From a virus, in the IMG/VR virus record IMGVR_UViG_3300020221_000037, positions 1 through 44,399 of that record: 44,399 nucleotides of DNA. One strand, written 5' to 3'. The notes beneath the pieces were generated by a model. The model saw only the letters and a program-made list of their open reading frames with translations, had not been told where the DNA came from and did not search any database. Shown here in pieces: positions 30,090-42,738 of this stretch. The position numbers and the translations under genes were made by a program. The first letter of the stretch is position 1. Each line of letters begins with the position of its first letter.

Positions 30090-30488
30090 TTATGCCCTAG
30101 TAGGTAAAAGAACAACCTCTATAATTTGTGTGTCAACGGGAAGACCAACAATGTCGTATTGAATAACTGCTAACAATTCGTGATCTTCTCCGTTTACAGT
30201 TACTTCTACATTAATGTTATCAATACGTGGTTCATATGCTTCTAAAACTGATTTAATTTCATTCTCCAAAGGTATCTCTGGAAATGTTGTATCTAACTCA
30301 AATAGTGCATCAGTGACTCTTGAACCAAAATCAGGATCAAAAAATTTTTCACCGAGTTTTGTGAAAATAATATTTTTGACAGATCGTTTAATCGCATCTT
30401 CATTTCGAATCGTTAAAAGATCTTTAGTAACTGGATGCTTTTTAAAAGACAAATTAATGTCTTTAAATGCTCTAGAAATAGATGCCAA
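30090..30488 (-). CDS. 25: Baseplate wedge protein gp25-like (132 aa)
   Basis: The length equals T4 gp25 (132 aa). SRAFKDINLSFKKHPVTKDL, AIKRSVKNIIFTKLGEKFFD and DFGSRVTDALFELDT are the family's conserved parts, including the lysozyme-like gp25/W fold core. In T4, gp25 with gp6 and gp53 forms the inner baseplate wedge and nucleates the sheath. A TATAAATA late promoter sits 26 bases upstream, inside the end of the 54-aa gene. Confidence 0.95.
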   Translation of the reverse strand: MASISRAFKDINLSFKKHPVTKDLLTIRNEDAIKRSVKNIIFTKLGEKFFDPDFGSRVTDALFELDTTFPEIPLENEIKSVLEAYEPRIDNINVEVTVNGEDHELLAVIQYDIVGLPVDTQIIEVVLLPTRA

Positions 30489-30513
30489 TTACTATTCTCC
30501 ACAAATCTTTTTG

Positions 30514-30521
30514 TATTTATA
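30514..30521 (-). promoter_or_regulatory. Perfect T4-type late promoter octamer TATAAATA before gp25
   Basis: Minus-strand GAGTATAAATACAA matches the T4 late consensus exactly and lies 26 bases before the gp25 ATG. It is the best late promoter seen in the window and heads the baseplate operon. Confidence 0.75.
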
Positions 30522-30527
30522 CTCCAA

Positions 30528-30692
30528 TTACATGGTTATTTTACCGTAATAAGGTTCTGTTCCATACTCCCAATCATCATAATCCTCATCATTGCGAATT
30601 CTTTCATGCAACTCAGTCTGTTTTTTGAGATCGTGCTTCTTTTCTGTCAAATTATCATGTAAAATTTCCGATAAGATCAATTTTTCGTCCAT
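30528..30692 (-). CDS. Small acidic protein upstream of gp25 (54 aa)
   Basis: The frame starts MDEKLILSEILHDNLTEKKH and ends WEYGTEPYYGKITM. AGGAG lies seven bases before the ATG, a strong ribosome binding site. The charged, helical N-terminal half is followed by an acidic tail (RNDEDYDDWEYG). It lies between the 220-aa gene and gp25, and the gp25 promoter overlaps its coding end region. Function unknown. Confidence 0.65.
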   Translation of the reverse strand: MDEKLILSEILHDNLTEKKHDLKKQTELHERIRNDEDYDDWEYGTEPYYGKITM

Positions 30693-30704
30693 TTTTTCTC
30701 CTGA

Positions 30705-31367
30705 TTAGTGAAAATCAGAACTTTTTACGGGGTTGCTATCCCGAATTTCTTTGATTTCGTACATAAAATCGTCTGAAGTCTCAATTTTTCTACGATTTTC
30801 AACTGAATATTCGGTCAAATCAATCTCATAACCTGGATTTTGAGTAATTCTGTTCTTTGTCCATGCATCATCGTACCATAAAATCTTATTATTTGGGTAT
30901 GCATAGTAATTTCCATTGTCCATCTTGAAAAAATGAGCACATTTATGTTCTGGAGTCTCACTAAAGTTCGTATTCAAGGTGGATTTTGACTCCCATGACC
31001 AATCGAGAGTGAACATATAAACACCTTCGTTCTTTTCACCTCGATAATTGATTAATTGAGCTCGTAATCCAGAGAGTCTTGAACGAACTTGAACATCAAT
31101 ATAAGGAGAAAAACAATCCCACCACATACACTCTTCCAATTGAGGGACTGGTGCATCTGGTTTCCAACAAAAGGCATGAATTGGCCTACGAGTCCAGTTT
31201 ACACCATTCTCAAGAAATGCCTCAAACAGCGGTACGTGCTTCTCTAAGGACGATACAGAGTGTACATCACATAAAGTTACCTCACCATGTCCCTTTTTAT
31301 GATTGTAGAGAAATTCATTACGAATGTAGCAAGTAATCGTTGGAAGATTATGATTTAAGTATGCCAT
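30705..31367 (-). CDS. Conserved cyanophage protein of unknown function (220 aa)
   Basis: The sequence MAYLNHNLPTITCYIRNEFL...HGEVTLCDVHSVSS, with many Trp and aromatic residues (CMWWDCFSPYIDVQ, MFTLDWSWESK, NKILWYDDAW), resembles an unnamed protein I recall near gp25 in T4-like cyanophages. No signal peptide, membrane span or known catalytic motif is visible. The ATG has only a weak ribosome binding site and follows a terminator-like hairpin by a few bases. Probably soluble; role unknown. Confidence 0.75.
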   Translation of the reverse strand: MAYLNHNLPTITCYIRNEFLYNHKKGHGEVTLCDVHSVSSLEKHVPLFEAFLENGVNWTRRPIHAFCWKPDAPVPQLEECMWWDCFSPYIDVQVRSRLSGLRAQLINYRGEKNEGVYMFTLDWSWESKSTLNTNFSETPEHKCAHFFKMDNGNYYAYPNNKILWYDDAWTKNRITQNPGYEIDLTEYSVENRRKIETSDDFMYEIKEIRDSNPVKSSDFH

Positions 31368-31375
31368 AAGTTGTT

Positions 31376-31402
31376 AATAAAAAAGCAGAAATTTCTTCCT
31401 GC
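31376..31402 (-). terminator. Rho-independent terminator after the 50-aa basic gene
   Basis: The minus strand reads AGCAGGAA / GAAA loop / TTTCTGCT (one G-T pair), then TTTTTTATT. The hairpin lies just 5' of the 220-aa gene start, so that gene needs read-through or an unseen promoter. Confidence 0.6.
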
Positions 31403-31406
31403 TCTA

Positions 31407-31559
31407 TCTATGTTATTATCGTCCTTGTCCCTTGTACCTTTTGCGAGATCCGTTGCGAGAAGAAGCACTCAATTTGGTATGTTGCGAGCGACCTTGACGA
31501 GTTTTCTTCGGTGTTCCGGGTACAAAATTCGACCCACCAGAGCTTTTACGAGTTGCCAT
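31407..31559 (-). CDS. Tiny basic protein MATRKSSGG..., possibly frameshifted near its C-terminus (50 aa)
   Basis: The minus-strand frame reads MATRKSSGGSNFVPGTPKKT, then TRQGRSQHTKLSASSRNGSR, a strongly basic composition that suggests nucleic-acid or capsid binding. I recall a short conserved cyanophage protein like this that ends in a basic YxGQGR-type tail. Here that tail (KRYKGQGR, stop at 31415) is readable only in the +1 frame after a run of five A's (forward T's 31438-31442). In the original frame the protein ends RKKVQGTRTIIT at 31407. An extra base in the homopolymer, natural or from sequencing, would explain this. Function unknown. Confidence 0.55.
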
Positions 31560-31572
31560 AAGTTAATCTCCA

Positions 31573-32346
31573 TCAAATAATACGAGTCTTTTCGTGACCG
31601 ACACGAATGCGTGGGTCACACCAGATTTCAAATCCCTCTTTCTTGGCATCAAGACAGAAGGATACGTCCTCACCGCACATGTCTTGAACCTCACCAGACT
31701 CAAAGACTTGCATTTGTGGTGCAAACCATGGATACGTGAGAGACTCAAAGACTCCATTCTTAATCAGCACCCATCCGAAACCTGTATAATCAACGGTAAA
31801 GGGTTTGCGTCTCTTCTGAATGGATTCCACTGTCTCATGATTCATCACACCACCATTCTTACGGAAGTCACCTTCCTCCAACCAATGAGCAACCGATGTG
31901 GTGTATCCGTCTTCCGTTGCATACCAACCCGCAACGATGTTCTTTTCATCCGTACAATCTTCGGATTCACCCTGAGCAAGTGCAAGAAGTTGCCAGAATT
32001 TTTCGGTGTTGAACACAATGTCATTATCAATCCAGAGTTGATAATCATAATTCAGTTTTCCGTCCCAAGGAATCTGCTTCGGTCCACGAAGAACATTTGC
32101 ACCAAGAACCTTACACCGTGCAAAGTTGACCATAGAAGAATAGTCCTGAGAGATCTGAATACTCATTCCGTTTTGAACAAGATCAAAACAGAGTTGAACA
32201 AAACTCTTCAGAAAAGTATAGGAACAACCTCTTCCAGGAAGACAGAAAACAATACTTTTACCTTTTGCTTTTTCTTTAATCTTATCATAATCCCACTGAG
32301 GAGAATCGGCAGTGGATTTCGCAATAACTTTAAATCCTTTTGTCAT
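31573..32346 (-). CDS. GT-A-fold glycosyltransferase-like protein (257 aa)
   Basis: KGKSIVFCLPGRGCSYTFLK (nucleotide-binding-like start), YDYQLWIDNDIVFNTEKFW (a DxD-type motif, D-N-D, near residues 107-109), VDYTGFGWVLIKNGVFESL and CGEDVSFCLDAKKEGFEIWC ending VGHEK fit the order of GT-A glycosyltransferases: DxD, acceptor loop, catalytic acidic residues, metal-binding His. Similar proteins in cyanophages are called glycosyltransferase-like. Substrate unknown; virion, DNA or host surface sugars are possible. Promoter: TTGACA-17-TATGAT lies just upstream, with a late CTAAATA inside its spacer. Confidence 0.7.
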   Translation of the reverse strand: MTKGFKVIAKSTADSPQWDYDKIKEKAKGKSIVFCLPGRGCSYTFLKSFVQLCFDLVQNGMSIQISQDYSSMVNFARCKVLGANVLRGPKQIPWDGKLNYDYQLWIDNDIVFNTEKFWQLLALAQGESEDCTDEKNIVAGWYATEDGYTTSVAHWLEEGDFRKNGGVMNHETVESIQKRRKPFTVDYTGFGWVLIKNGVFESLTYPWFAPQMQVFESGEVQDMCGEDVSFCLDAKKEGFEIWCDPRIRVGHEKTRII

Positions 32347-32434: not shown

Positions 32435-33013
32435 ATGTTTAATTCAGAAGACGTAAGATTACTGCAAGAAGCATACGCATCTGTTTATTTTGATGAGTCT
32501 CAGTATGCTCGTGAAAATCCAGAGAAGTATGAAAGAAGCCCAGAAGCAAGAGAAGGCCGCAGAAGAAGAAGTGGAATAAATGATCCTCATACTGGAATCA
32601 ATTCACCTGCTTTTGAAAAGTTTATGAGACAGCAAATGGGTGGTGGAAAGAAAAAGAAAGTAAAAGAAGAAGTTTTTGATGAAATTTTCTCACATCTTCT
32701 CGATGAAGGTTATGCCGACACCGATCAGGCAGCTCTTGCTATTATGGCAAATATGAGTGAAGAGTGGAGGCAGAGTATTGTTGAATTCATGAGAGGTTCT
32801 GGTCCCGGACGCCCCAATGGTGGAAATAGCACCCGTCCTGGTGACGGGAAACCATATGCAGATGGTCCTCTCTGGGATAGTAAACAAAAGCCAGAGGATG
32901 TACCAAGTTCTACAAAATCATCACCTACTAAAAAACCAACACCAAAACCAACACCAGGAAATAGCACCCGTCCTGGTGACGGGAAACCATATGCAGATGG
33001 TCCTCTCTTCTGA
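32435..33013 (+). CDS. Virion- or prohead-associated-like protein with repeated Gly/Pro tail (192 aa)
   Basis: This is the only clear plus-strand gene. The N-terminus LLQEAYASVYFDE matches a short 'QEAY.SVY' start shared by several unrelated late cyanophage proteins. Residues of about 78-115 (VFDEIFSHLLDEGYADTDQA, AIMANMSEEWRQSIVEF) match a short helical tag common in cyanophage structural or scaffold proteins. The tail has two copies of GNSTRPGDGKPYADGPL separated by a Lys/Pro/Thr linker. A late promoter lies before it and a strong terminator after it. Probably a late, particle-associated protein; exact role unknown. Confidence 0.7.
   Translation: MFNSEDVRLLQEAYASVYFDESQYARENPEKYERSPEAREGRRRRSGINDPHTGINSPAFEKFMRQQMGGGKKKKVKEEVFDEIFSHLLDEGYADTDQAALAIMANMSEEWRQSIVEFMRGSGPGRPNGGNSTRPGDGKPYADGPLWDSKQKPEDVPSSTKSSPTKKPTPKPTPGNSTRPGDGKPYADGPLF
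32822..33008 (+). repeat. Two identical 52-bp direct repeats in the tail of the 192-aa gene (32822-32873, 32957-33008)
   Basis: The copies are identical over 52 bases and in the same frame, 135 bases apart, encoding GNSTRPGDGKPYADGPL twice. Identity at the DNA level implies recent duplication or recombination-prone homogenisation. Confidence 0.95.
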
Positions 33014-33299: not shown

Positions 33300-33308
33300 C
33301 TGACTATA

Positions 33309-33462
33309 AAGTTTTCCACAAGTTTATGATACTTTTTCCACAAGTTTTCCACATAAAGTATAAAGTTTTCCACAGGTTGCTGATGCTTACTGTGCATGAG
33401 ATCTCTGATACCAACTGTGATCTCGCAGATTTATACTCAGAACCTGTGGAAAACTTTATACT
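33309..33462. promoter_or_regulatory. DnaA-box-like cluster 1: five exact TTTTCCACA copies with a 22-bp inverted repeat
   Basis: TTTTCCACA occurs on the plus strand at 33312-33320, 33334-33342, 33345-33353 and 33366-33374, and on the minus strand at 33445-33453. TTTTCCACA is known as the DnaA box form of cyanobacteria (E. coli: TTATCCACA). The segment 33309-33343 recurs exactly at 34188-34222. The arms 33357-33378 and 33441-33462 are a perfect 22-bp inverted repeat around a 62-base spacer. See cluster 2 and the findings. Confidence 0.75.
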
Positions 33463-33727
33463 ATTCCTCCGCAATCTTATCGTATGAAAGCGTCAAGAGG
33501 GAGGATGTAATGCTGTGTGCATGAGTGATACTGTGCAGCAGCAGATTGCGACCTGATTGCTGATACCATTGTGCGCTGCTGTTGTATAGAAACTGTGTGA
33601 TGCCTGCGATAACAGCAGCAACCGTAGCAGTGAGCATCAGTATCTCATGCATAATCTCATGAGCATAAACCTCATGCAATTGTTCCTGCAGCGTGCTCAG
33701 ATAAGGCACCTGAAAAGAATAGCTCAT
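33461..33727 (-). CDS. Small protein with one probable membrane helix, between the DnaA-box clusters (88 aa)
   Basis: The sequence MSYSFQVPYLSTLQEQLHEV, then AHEIMHEILMLTATVAAVIAGITQFL (likely membrane helix, about residues 24-47), and a C-terminus ending LSYDKIAEE resembles a small cyanophage membrane protein, but I cannot name it. The stop lies inside the right arm of the inverted repeat of cluster 1. It is downstream of the 59-aa gene and shares its sigma-70 promoter. No clear Shine-Dalgarno sequence before the ATG. Function unknown. Confidence 0.55.
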   Translation of the reverse strand: MSYSFQVPYLSTLQEQLHEVYAHEIMHEILMLTATVAAVIAGITQFLYNSSAQWYQQSGRNLLLHSITHAHSITSSLLTLSYDKIAEE

Positions 33728-33814
33728 AATGATAAAAATGTGTTTTCAGTGGTATGACCCCTGCATACGATTAGAGAGGGGTTGTAGAGGCACAGAGAGG
33801 TGTCTGGTGACGTA

Positions 33815-33994
33815 TTACCAATCGAGATTCATGTCCTCTACGGTGACACTTAAGGACTCTGCTGGTTCTAACTTAAAGACACGTTCATAATTAATCTCAT
33901 GAGGATTGAAGTCTTCGAGCACGTTGAACTCTAAAGTCACACGAAATTTCTGTAACTGTCCAGGTAGAGATGCCAGTGTCATGAGATTTCTCAT
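33815..33994 (-). CDS. Small protein with 'FRVTLEFNVLEDFNPHEINYE' core (59 aa)
   Basis: The frame reads MRNLMTLASLPGQLQKFRVT, LEFNVLEDFNPHEINYERVF and ends MNLDW at TAA. An alternative start is Met5 (33982). The core resembles small cyanophage early proteins of the pattern 'F.V...F.VL.DFNP..INWE..F.L'. It is the first gene after the strong minus-strand promoter at 34035-34007, so it is probably expressed early. No catalytic motif is visible. Function unknown. Confidence 0.65.
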   Translation of the reverse strand: MRNLMTLASLPGQLQKFRVTLEFNVLEDFNPHEINYERVFKLEPAESLSVTVEDMNLDW

Positions 33995-34006
33995 CGGGTT
34001 ACACTA

Positions 34007-34035
34007 ATTATAAGGGTTGTGAGGGATTTTGTCAA
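34007..34035 (-). promoter_or_regulatory. Consensus sigma-70 promoter driving the 59-aa and 88-aa genes
   Basis: Minus strand: TTGACA (34035-34030), 17-base spacer, TATAAT (34012-34007). Both hexamers match the bacterial consensus exactly. The -10 ends 12 bases before the ATG at 33994. Confidence 0.85.
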
Positions 34036-34068
34036 CTCTGAGGGTGTGGAGTTTTGTGTGGGTGTGTG

Positions 34069-34097
34069 TTGACAAAGTGCGTGTCTTATGTTATAAC
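34069..34097 (+). promoter_or_regulatory. Sigma-70 promoter on the plus strand, firing into DnaA-box cluster 2
   Basis: Plus strand: TTGACA (34069-34074), 17-base spacer, TATAAC (34092-34097), one base from consensus. It diverges from the promoter at 34007-34035. No protein gene of normal size lies downstream on this strand, so the product may be a non-coding or primer RNA. Confidence 0.7.
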
Positions 34098-34187
34098 GTC
34101 TTAGACCACAAGCACTGAGAGGATTTAATTGATCGGCACACGAAACATTAAAACAACTCTAGAAGGGTTTTAATACACATAAAAAAG

Positions 34188-34306
34188 AAGTTTTCCACAA
34201 GTTTATGATACTTTTTCCACAAACCTGTGGAAAACTATAAAACAGCATATTATGTTTTTTAATACATTTTTATCATACAAAAAACTTTTCTAAATTACAT
34301 TTTTTT
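34188..34306. promoter_or_regulatory. DnaA-box-like cluster 2 with adjacent AT-rich stretch (candidate origin core)
   Basis: TTTTCCACA occurs on the plus strand at 34191-34199 and 34213-34221 and on the minus strand at 34226-34234; the last two form an inverted pair with a four-base gap. The 35 bases 34188-34222 equal 33309-33343. Bases 34235-34306 that follow are very AT-rich and include several A and T runs, as expected of a DNA unwinding element. A further TTTTCCACA lies at 34502-34510 inside the neighbouring gene. Origin function is inferred from architecture only. Confidence 0.6.
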
Positions 34307-34557
34307 GGTGGAAACATTCCAGTGTAAGGTGTAGTCAATGAGAGATCAATTTGCTTTCCTGGTGTCTTTGAATTGACTGGGGCAAAGTATAATTGTTTCT
34401 TGATAGAATAGAATCCCCAGACTGTTGCCACTGCTTTTCCCAAGTTGTAATCGTATTTGCAATGATGATTGAGCATAATGCGATCAAACTTGGAATTAAA
34501 CTTTTCCACACTGTAAGAGTAACCATTTGGAGCAGAATGTGGAAAGTTGGGTGTCAC
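34273..34557 (-). CDS. Conserved small phage protein, GTG start (94 aa)
   Basis: The frame starts at GTG 34557, overlapping the TGA of the 38-aa gene by GTGA, which supports this start and coupled translation. The body YSVEKFNSKFDRIMLNHHCK, YDYNLGKAVATVWGFYSIKK and LYFAPVNSKTPGKQIDLS resembles a small family I recall from cyanophage early regions. No motif gives a function. One TTTTCCACA lies within the coding region, and the 3' end runs into the AT-rich stretch. Confidence 0.7.
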   Translation of the reverse strand: MTPNFPHSAPNGYSYSVEKFNSKFDRIMLNHHCKYDYNLGKAVATVWGFYSIKKQLYFAPVNSKTPGKQIDLSLTTPYTGMFPPKKCNLEKFFV

Positions 34558-35204: not shown

Positions 35205-35393
35205 TTATGCTCCAATAGATGTCAACAACTTGTCACATTCATGATACAATCCTGGTTTGACACTTTTTGCCTTGGTGATGACAAGATTTCGATTCAGATT
35301 TGGATGTCGATAGATCAAATGCTTGCCCGATGTGCGATGTTCATAGCAACCACGAGAGAGCAATTCTCGGAGAAAATCGTTGTACTTAATCAT
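35205..35393 (-). CDS. HicA/YcfA-like putative mRNA interferase, no HicB seen (62 aa)
   Basis: The sequence MIKYNDFLRELLSRGCYEHR, TSGKHLIYRHPNLNRNLVI and KSVKPGLYHECDKLL fits the small HicA (YcfA) double-stranded RNA-binding-type fold: an N-terminal helix, a strand with the catalytic His in G-K/S-H, then 'R.P' and a second strand. HicA toxins cut mRNA and are normally paired with HicB; neither neighbour looks like HicB. In a phage it could act on host messages or block a host toxin-antitoxin pair. The stop codon lies inside the GATAAGTTAC-type element. Confidence 0.7.
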   Translation of the reverse strand: MIKYNDFLRELLSRGCYEHRTSGKHLIYRHPNLNRNLVITKAKSVKPGLYHECDKLLTSIGA

Positions 35394-41046: not shown

Positions 41047-41226
41047 CTACATGGGAAGTTTACCGATTGACTTTCCTTTTTTGTGTGCTTGAATGTATTT
41101 CCGTGCAGAACCTTCAGTTCTACACAGTTTCTCAAGTTGTTGTCCATTGTGTATGATGATGTATCCTTTGTTAGCATAGGGAACTGCTGCGTATTCTCCT
41201 TTATTGACTATAAATCCTTCCATCAT
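41047..41226 (-). CDS. Small basic protein coupled to the helicase gene (59 aa)
   Basis: MMEGFIVNKGEYAAVPYANK, then GYIIIHNGQQLEKLCRTEGS and ARKYIQAHKKGKSIGKL. Basic C-terminal helix. The ATGATG start overlaps the helicase stop TGA, so it is co-translated with it. A small protein of this kind next to the helicase is familiar from cyanophages; a helicase partner is possible but unproven. Confidence 0.7.
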   Translation of the reverse strand: MMEGFIVNKGEYAAVPYANKGYIIIHNGQQLEKLCRTEGSARKYIQAHKKGKSIGKLPM

Positions 41227-42461
41227 TTCCTCACCACACTCACAGCAGGTTCACCTTTGGTGAAAATCGTATCAACAACCGATTGAACTGCACGAGCAGT
41301 GCTGACACCAACCTTGTTGTAAACAGGAATACAAACTAGACCGAACGATTTGCTATACTGACCAAGGTTGCCAGGTTGAATCAAACCATCACGAAGTCCT
41401 TTTGCGTCGTCATGATGCAACCTAATGACACGTCCGATAGTTTGACTGATGCCAATAAAGTCCATGTTGCGAAGAAACAAAACTGCCTCAAGTCCAGAGA
41501 CATTGATACCCTCTGCAAGGATGCTATGATGCAACACAACAAACTTCTTAGAGTTATCCTTACCCCATGCAGAAAGAGTGTCAAAGAACACCTCACGATT
41601 GACTTTGCGACCATCAATCACTGCACCAGTCTTGGCAGTAATATACATCCAAGAGAAACCACGTTGCTCTAACTCAGCACAGAAATCAGTTTCTGACACC
41701 AGTGAAACGATTTGCTTGGTTGCCTTAGCACAAATCAGAATCTTGCTGGCATTGTTATCATCAATCGTTTCCAGCAGATTAGCAGCATCACGATCAAAGT
41801 TTGTCTGCTTGCCAGTCACCATTTCCAGTTGCTTGACTACAACTTTAGGGGGCACAATGTATCCACCTTCGACAAGTTCGGGAGCAGGAACTTTGCAGAT
41901 CACTTGACCATAAACATCCACATCATTCATGCCTGGTTTACCCACAGTCACGGAATGTTTCGGAGTTGCAGTAAAGAAATAGCAACGATTTGCATTGGCA
42001 GCAAAGTGCTCCGTTGCAGGGAAAAAGTTACGTTTGACCGAATTGTGTGCTTCGTCAAAGTAAATCGTATTCACATCAATACCTGCCTCCTGAATACGTT
42101 GCAGGGAGTTGTAAGTGGTGAAGATGATACGATTGCGCTTGTAAGTCTGCACCGCCCAATCATAGATACCAGCAGGACTGGTGGTGGACTCGTGATGAGT
42201 CTCCCCAGAATGCACGTGAAGCACACGAACCATAGGATCAGTGATAAACTCCAGAAACTCACTGGACAACTGCTCTGCCAGCAGAATACGGGGAGCAACT
42301 ACAACAATAGTCTGAGGAGTTTGTGACTGAAACTCACGCAGAGCATCATAAATCATCTTCAGAGTCTTGCCACCACCAGTAGGCACAATCACCTGACCTT
42401 TGTTGTGCTTTTGCATAGCAGCAACAGCACGTTCTTGATGCGGACGGAGTTGAAGTTGCAT
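41223..42461 (-). CDS. Superfamily 2 DEAH-box DNA helicase, UvsW-like (412 aa)
   Basis: I chose ATG 42461 (MQLQLRPHQERAVAAMQKHN); an upstream in-frame Met at 42533 overlaps the previous gene. Motif Q/Ia region RPHQ, Walker A VPTGGGKT (about residues 26-33), DEAH in IYFDEAH (about 135), FFTATP motif III, GKDNSKKFVVLHHSILAEGI and QTIGRVIRLHH (motif VI, arginine finger) are all present and intact. Such helicases (UvsW in T4) process recombination and replication forks and remove R-loops at origins. The protein lacks an extra N-terminal domain, so UvsW or a related RAD25-type phage helicase are both possible. Confidence 0.85.
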   Translation of the reverse strand: MQLQLRPHQERAVAAMQKHNKGQVIVPTGGGKTLKMIYDALREFQSQTPQTIVVVAPRILLAEQLSSEFLEFITDPMVRVLHVHSGETHHESTTSPAGIYDWAVQTYKRNRIIFTTYNSLQRIQEAGIDVNTIYFDEAHNSVKRNFFPATEHFAANANRCYFFTATPKHSVTVGKPGMNDVDVYGQVICKVPAPELVEGGYIVPPKVVVKQLEMVTGKQTNFDRDAANLLETIDDNNASKILICAKATKQIVSLVSETDFCAELEQRGFSWMYITAKTGAVIDGRKVNREVFFDTLSAWGKDNSKKFVVLHHSILAEGINVSGLEAVLFLRNMDFIGISQTIGRVIRLHHDDAKGLRDGLIQPGNLGQYSKSFGLVCIPVYNKVGVSTARAVQSVVDTIFTKGEPAVSVVRK

Positions 42462-42507
42462 TACAAATGAATCAATACAAGTATGATAGAAAAGATTAGG
42501 CAAAAAG

Positions 42508-42738
42508 TCAAGGATCTTGTGCCAGTTCTTCAACTGTCACGTGCTTACATAGTTGTCTTTTAAGTTCCACCTGAATGTTGATAAGATGACCATACAAAAA
42601 CTGCTGATACTCATTACCTTCCAGAAGATTTGTGAGTTCAGTTATACATTCAAGTGACTTGATGAGTTTATTTTTCTCTGTGAGAGGAGTTTTCAACCAT
42701 TCATCCAACACTTTATCATCAATAGGCAATTCAATCAT
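42508..42738 (-). CDS. Small helical hypothetical protein upstream of the helicase (76 aa)
   Basis: MIELPIDDKVLDEWLKTPLT...LIKSLECITELTNLLEGNEY. The start overlaps the 81-aa membrane gene stop by four bases. All-helical, mixed charge. In the same operon as the helicase, with a 46-base gap before it. Function unknown. Confidence 0.65.
   Translation of the reverse strand: MIELPIDDKVLDEWLKTPLTEKNKLIKSLECITELTNLLEGNEYQQFLYGHLINIQVELKRQLCKHVTVEELAQDP

Follow-up and report, generated by a model that had tools for sequence, protein, structure and literature searches.

The region at positions 33309-34306 of the IMG/VR virus record IMGVR_UViG_3300020221_000037, a 44,399-bp fragment of a T4-like cyanophage that was analysed in full and is referred to here as the window, is probably (we put it at roughly two in three) a replication origin on the transcript-primed plan of T4 oriF to which sites for the host initiator DnaA have been added. 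It contains two groups of DnaA boxes identical to those of the host and set at regular spacing, together with a conserved promoter, leader and unwinding element (the module) in a mostly single-copy syntenic position, and versions of the module without boxes exist in other phages. From this arrangement we infer binding of DnaA, transcription, formation of an R-loop and the start of replication at the locus. The virus most likely begins to replicate its genome at this locus; for the T4-like cyanophages, which are among the most abundant viruses in the ocean, such an origin had not been precisely located before.

A preliminary description made from the sequence of the window had listed nine exact copies of the motif TTTTCCACA, taken them for the cyanobacterial DnaA box and proposed either an origin or a site that titrates DnaA. 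All nine lie exactly where it placed them (33312+, 33334+, 33345+, 33366+, 33445-, 34191+, 34213+, 34226- and 34502+) and a full scan adds two isolated copies within a structural gene (21433- and 21660-) which its non-exhaustive look had missed. The total of 11 compares with 1.18 +/- 1.10 expected and a maximum of 5 in 100 shuffles, these copy counts covering the one 44,399-bp fragment. No other 9-mer of the window is as strongly clustered as TTTTCCACA/TGTGGAAAA, with 9 copies within 1.3 kb (33312-34510); the runners-up are stretches of A-rich simple sequence or overlap the TTTTCCACA motif. These nine copies form array A and group B (Table 1) with the exception of the box at 34502-34510, which is inside the phrog_573 gene and was left out of the module. 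The beginning of array A recurs exactly over 35 bp in group B (34188-34222).

Seen in the window by itself group B could be no more than a hairpin in the RNA of the convergent gene or its terminator, with array A a by-product of its duplication, and its minus strand does form a 20-pair hairpin followed by a T-run with an RNA fold z of -3.8. Most relatives however carry direct repeats, which are incapable of forming a hairpin, or convergent pairs not followed by a T-run. The terminator-hairpin reading of group B thus fits the window only, is largely refuted by the relatives and appears extremely improbable.

The assignment of the motif to DnaA was upheld. TTTTCCACA is identical to the 'species-specific' cyanobacterial DnaA box for which DnaA binding was tested in Cyanothece and Anabaena (PMC4674748) and it is present, along with one-mismatch variants such as TATTCCACA, TTTTCCCCA and ATTTCCACA, in the picocyanobacterial oriC (Cyanobiaceae) beside dnaN. 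Single-mismatch boxes are also enriched ~3.5-fold within the phage modules (20 against ~6), the changes falling mostly at box positions 3 and 6 and never at 8 or 9. No homolog of DnaA is encoded in 13 phage records so that the protein bound to the boxes, if it is DnaA, is the host's. These records thereby also gave no DnaA-family candidate for an iteron origin, in which the phage would encode an initiator beside its own iterons, although several small ORFs without an assigned function lie near the locus. The possibility that the phage array is a captured host oriC was rejected as the host oriC is laid out differently and has no close direct-repeat box pairs.

The repeats might instead be bound by some other DNA-binding protein of the host or the phage, with the match to the DnaA box a coincidence or the result of shared ancestry, which we regard as very improbable. 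An extended flank preference around the 9-mer (AGTTTTCCACAGG) would suit such a protein, as would the other palindrome that box-free phages hold in the same slot, however this leaves the exact identity to the tested cyanobacterial box and to the hosts' own oriC boxes to be explained, and the single mismatches fall at positions like those of known DnaA-box variants. In many viral contigs the E. coli-type box TTATCCACA forms triple clusters, but in these phages it hardly does so, with homologs of window genes at 4 of the 120 loci listed against 69 of the 120 listed for triple clusters of TTTTCCACA; the sole T4-like TTATCCACA cluster (L578) was discarded as a 12-bp repeat of a different kind that is probably coding.

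A search of related phages, suggested in the preliminary description, showed that many of them carry such clusters at one and the same locus. Three direct boxes within ~90 bp were found at a minimum of 120 IMG/VR loci (at least 120 against 17 for a reversed control motif), and among relatives picked by their neighbouring gene and not by their boxes 5/16 and 8/33 had two exact boxes within 60 bp, with permuted control motifs in such relatives at approximately zero. Where whole records contain a cluster it occupies one place, namely 58.06 kb in S-SM2, 80.1-80.6 kb in DSL-LC03, 46.7-47.0 kb in S-RIM2, 52.57 kb in Syn9, 19.23 kb in S-PM2 and 50.6 kb in Syn19, and no box clusters were present in the whole records of P-SSM2, Bellamy, S-T4, S-CAM9 and S-SSM7. 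Across 47 non-redundant arrays the spacing between neighbours on the same strand was 11, 12 or 20-22 bp in 79/95 cases, equivalent to one or two helical turns. The 22/11/21/~78 layout of array A is found again in five relatives (L003, L007, L016, L037 and L070) in which the DNA between the boxes differs.

Two of the records with clusters deserve separate mention. The 284 kb contig IMGVR_UViG_3300027541_000009 (L040, L080) contains two box clusters and two different copies of phrog_1574 and is for this reason probably two joined phage genomes. In S-PM2 (NC_006820, 17.4-19.3 kb; L484) the annotation places tRNAs across genes and the box cluster, but ARAGORN finds none there and the coordinates given for them look out of date.

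The conserved geometry bears on the titration proposal, in which the boxes act as a decoy similar to datA whose high-affinity sites soak up host DnaA and block host initiation. Like datA-type sites the locus groups high-affinity DnaA boxes at a distance from the host origin; the boxes are of perfect consensus, number up to 8-9 per phage, are denser than in the host oriC and would climb in copy number with phage replication. A sink however could do without helical phasing, a fixed orientation, an unwinding element and a promoter, all of which are conserved, and unlike datA-type sites the phage boxes adjoin a promoter and unwinding element in conserved geometry. Many relatives have just 2-3 boxes and others have none, and early in infection, with a few boxes on each genome, presumably little DnaA would be sequestered. 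Since the boxes keep their spacing, their position and their neighbouring elements from phage to phage, we consider a pure DnaA decoy improbable and less likely than an origin. Of the two proposals in the preliminary description it is therefore the origin that gains from the recurrent clusters, their helical spacing and the adjacent unwinding element, with titration explaining less.

The second component of the locus is an orphan promoter of sigma-70 type in the orientation opposite to the neighbouring genes, downstream of which the window has no credible candidate for a + strand gene. Most relatives carry TTGACA-17-TATAxT and then GGCTAAGATCACAAG on the same strand 5' of the unwinding element. 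A hidden Markov model (HMM) of this promoter/leader block, from whose training the window and the box-free loci L188, L130, L156 and L123 were left out, matched ~90 loci with E values outside the training set down to ~1e-19, and the window was recovered as a held-out match (34066-34127 +, E=1.7e-5). In the isolates the module is antisense to annotated genes. An RNA-family explanation was set aside, with Rfam returning just one sub-threshold and meaningless match and the promoter/leader block having no conserved RNA fold. The leaders of three relatives (L170, L143 and L168) contain tandem units of 31-34 bp, or about three helical turns, in 3-5 copies, for example GGTCTCAGAGCATTAAAAGGGTATAAGTTACG.

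The AT-rich stretch that the preliminary description had noted beside group B was confirmed and is the predicted unwinding element, the 60 bp beside group B having an AT content within the highest 0.6% of the window. In relatives the A+T-rich tract adjoining the arrays or group B has a conserved core TATACATTTWTTAATACATTT built of 13-nt repeats, this core is also present in the box-free relatives L188, L130 and L156, and the AT content of the 60 bp that follow an array or B group is on average at the ~90th percentile. The mean AT profile around whole arrays was flat and the signal appeared once orientation and the B element were separated. Scored with an unwinding-element matrix, the sequence downstream of the promoter exceeded that upstream in 85/85 loci, seeds included, with a median position of ~+100. 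In S-PM2, which was outside the training, the top genome-wide match (24.4 bits, the next being 15.5) adjoins the three boxes of this phage.

At the minimal T4 oriF and oriG, which consist of a promoter followed by an A+T-rich unwinding element, the RNA forms an R-loop there that primes the leading strand (PMC3016281). The window shares with T4 oriF, or ori(uvsY), a promoter pointing into an A+T-rich unwinding element that lies downstream of it and also the uvsW/uvsY-gene 25 interval, oriF lying between uvsY and gene 25 beside uvsW in the T4 record and the module lying between UvsW and gene 25. In both the RNA heads away from gene 25 towards uvsW, and the order of helicase and gp25 is likewise found around the module in S-SM2 and Bellamy. 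The differences are that T4 oriF has a MotA middle promoter where the window has a sigma-70 sequence (TTGACA-17-TATAAC), that the RNA is the uvsY mRNA in T4 and antisense to the surrounding genes here, that DnaA boxes are added and that the R-loop is predicted from sequence. The best-studied origins of T4 depend on motA promoters. Cyanomyoviruses have no motA (PMC2984593) so that a host sigma-70 promoter is to be expected in them, and oriE of T4 uses an early promoter, the middle promoter thus not being universal among T4 origins (PMC3016281).

Compared with the cyanobacterial oriC the phage locus has the same box TTTTCCACA, multiple phased boxes and an adjacent AT-rich unwinding element with short repeats. 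It differs in lying away from dnaA/dnaN, in having no host-type DnaA-trio, in having a promoter aimed at the unwinding element and in its tighter, perfect-consensus boxes and other layout. The preliminary description had set T4 origins, as transcript-primed and independent of DnaA, apart from such a locus, a contrast that proved too sharp in that the boxes are inside a T4 oriF-like module which also exists without them. Because the boxes lie in a conserved module of promoter and unwinding element that is also found box-free, DnaA would seem to be an optional supplement to an origin of T4 type and not a substitute for it.

We propose that the host-type sigma-70 promoter would give rise to a short non-coding RNA, antisense to the neighbouring genes, that runs into the unwinding element. 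The RNA may remain annealed there as an R-loop and prime the leading strand as at T4 oriF. In this phage and many of its relatives host DnaA would bind the phased TTTTCCACA boxes cooperatively, with group B beside the unwinding element and array A upstream of the promoter, and bound DnaA might help to melt the unwinding element or hold it open, or it might couple phage firing to the state of host DnaA.

The module occurs with and without DnaA boxes, which where present are between the leader and unwinding element, just past the latter or upstream of the promoter; in the window array A sits 0.6 kb upstream of the rest of the module. A model of the module built from sequence alone had a match in 17/26 complete or long phage records, usually exactly one each, and no match in T4. 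The records with a match include the box-free Bellamy, S-SSM7, S-CAM9, S-B43 and S-SRM01, and Syn9 has a convergent box pair (52565/52589) with a weak module match (52653-52712). Among 41 module-bearing loci not chosen by their boxes, the window included, 16 (~40%) had at least two exact boxes, 5 had one and 20 had none. The idea that boxes are a clade marker was rejected with at least 10 changes on the poorly resolved tree of these 41 loci.

In box-free modules other motifs often occupy the position of the boxes. Palindromes of the TGATACGAATTCGTATCA type were present in the box slot of 9/24 box-free against 0/51 box-positive modules and ATTGAGAAT repeats in 5/24 against 0/51, the loci being related and the counts not independent. 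Seven loci (L147, L150, L156, L163, L168, L170 and L174) combine a TGATACGAATTCGTATCA-type palindrome with TTATCA repeats in the slot at promoter +70 to +290, and three box-free loci (L140, L180 and L349) have ATTCTCAAT/ATTGAGAAT repeats which we take to be reminiscent of Fur-type sites. As the palindromes or repeats and the DnaA boxes are mutually exclusive, this suggests that the slot may hold interchangeable protein-binding sites. A wider reading, which we advance tentatively and consider possible rather than probable, is that the T4-like cyanophages share a single-copy T4-oriF-like origin that combines an orphan antisense promoter, a leader and an unwinding element with a protein-binding slot of interchangeable content, in which the helper of the initiator has been repeatedly swapped during evolution. 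The slot, or the upstream side of the promoter, would then hold host DnaA boxes in roughly 40% and otherwise a TGATACGAATTCGTATCA palindrome or ATTGAGAAT repeats. Were this true, transcript-primed and DnaA-type initiation would be fused in one lytic-phage origin, for which we found no precedent.

The same promoter could alternatively make a regulatory antisense RNA that the flanking boxes repress or activate through DnaA, with no origin at the locus. This is unlikely in our judgement but deserves to be taken seriously. The boxes do flank the promoter, with array A upstream and group B ~35-120 nt after the predicted start, a divergent consensus promoter is present at 34007-34035 - and the transcript would be antisense to annotated genes in the isolates. 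Left unexplained however are the conserved unwinding element beside the boxes, the synteny with T4 oriF and the retention of the promoter with a quite different motif in the slot, and no conserved RNA fold is present in the promoter/leader block.

Several observations weigh against a DnaA-assisted origin of the T4 oriF type. Cumulative GC skew, which the preliminary description had suggested as a test, shows no sign change at the locus in the complete genomes of Syn9, S-PM2, S-SM2 and DSL-LC03. The promoter is of sigma-70 type and not a T4 middle promoter. Clear DnaA-trios (CTACTACTACT) follow a box in the picocyanobacterial oriC loci L297, L298, L307, L315 and L325, and none is visible in window 33300-34310. 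Under stricter filters the module was not found in P-SSM2, S-T4, P-SSM4, P-HM1, S-RSM4, Syn19 and ACG-2014f. The promoter seeds and the unwinding-element seeds were each located by reference to the other, which is partly circular and is answered in part by the held-out loci.

A single theta origin has been predicted for Syn9, which belongs to the same phage group as the window (ref. 23 in PMC2984593), and this 2010 review, which mentions that prediction only, calls the other origins of the group unknown. We found no published report on DnaA boxes in cyanophages, T4-like phages or Syn9 in a search that left most subscription journals outside. The precise conserved coordinates in the isolates Syn9, S-PM2, S-SM2, S-RIM2 and Bellamy make the question directly testable. 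Use of DnaA, if confirmed, would tie the initiation of phage replication to the replication and cell-cycle state of the host, a host dependency new for a T4-like phage, and would make the origin a natural hybrid of two classical initiation mechanisms.

Table 1 Features of the candidate origin and its surroundings in the window
Feature	Position	Strand	Remarks
DnaA-box array A	33312..33453	.	four direct boxes 33312/33334/33345/33366, spacing 22/11/21, and inverted box 33445-33453, 79 bp on
Divergent sigma-70 promoter	34007..34035	-	12/12 consensus TTGACA-17-TATAAT, consensus match only; leftward with flanking genes
Orphan sigma-70-type promoter	34069..34097	+	TTGACA (34069-34074), 17 nt, TATAAC (34092-34097); aims at group B and unwinding element
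Leader (predicted)	34098..34190	+	start predicted ~34104; conserved block CTTAGACCACAAG (relatives: GGCTAAGATCACAAG)
DnaA-box group B	34191..34234	.	34191+, 34213+ (22 bp apart) and convergent 34226-
A+T-rich unwinding element (predicted)	34235..34306	+	85% AT; core TTATGTTTTTTAATACATTTTTATCA at 34250-34275, 13-nt repeats, ACATTTnTT type
phrog_573 gene (convergent neighbour)	34273..34557	-	3' end meets module; contains lone box 34502-34510
Gene 25 (baseplate wedge)	30090..30488	-	matches annotated gp25; one border of syntenic interval
phrog_1574 glycosyltransferase-like gene	31573..32346	-	conserved neighbour on gene-25 side; served to find relatives
UvsW-like helicase	41223..42533	-	phrog_16 DNA helicase, ResIII/DEAD; other border of interval

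The gene order of the window, with T4-type baseplate and neck genes on the left followed by gene 25, a ferredoxin-like gene, phrog_1574 and the UvsW-like helicase (41-42.5 kb), bears out the T4-like cyanophage source given in the preliminary description. In the close relative L115 a phrog_573 gene likewise adjoins the B boxes. The GC content rises at window 30500-31500 from ~30% in the structural genes to ~40% at the ferredoxin gene. The open reading frame (ORF) at 32435-33013 has a stretch of ~50 bp (ggaaatagcacccgtcctggtgacgggaaaccatatgcagatggtcctctc) that is repeated (window 32820-33012), and a small ORF at 35205-35393 (-) matches phrog_353, which carries the annotation 'toxin' (E=3.5e-8).
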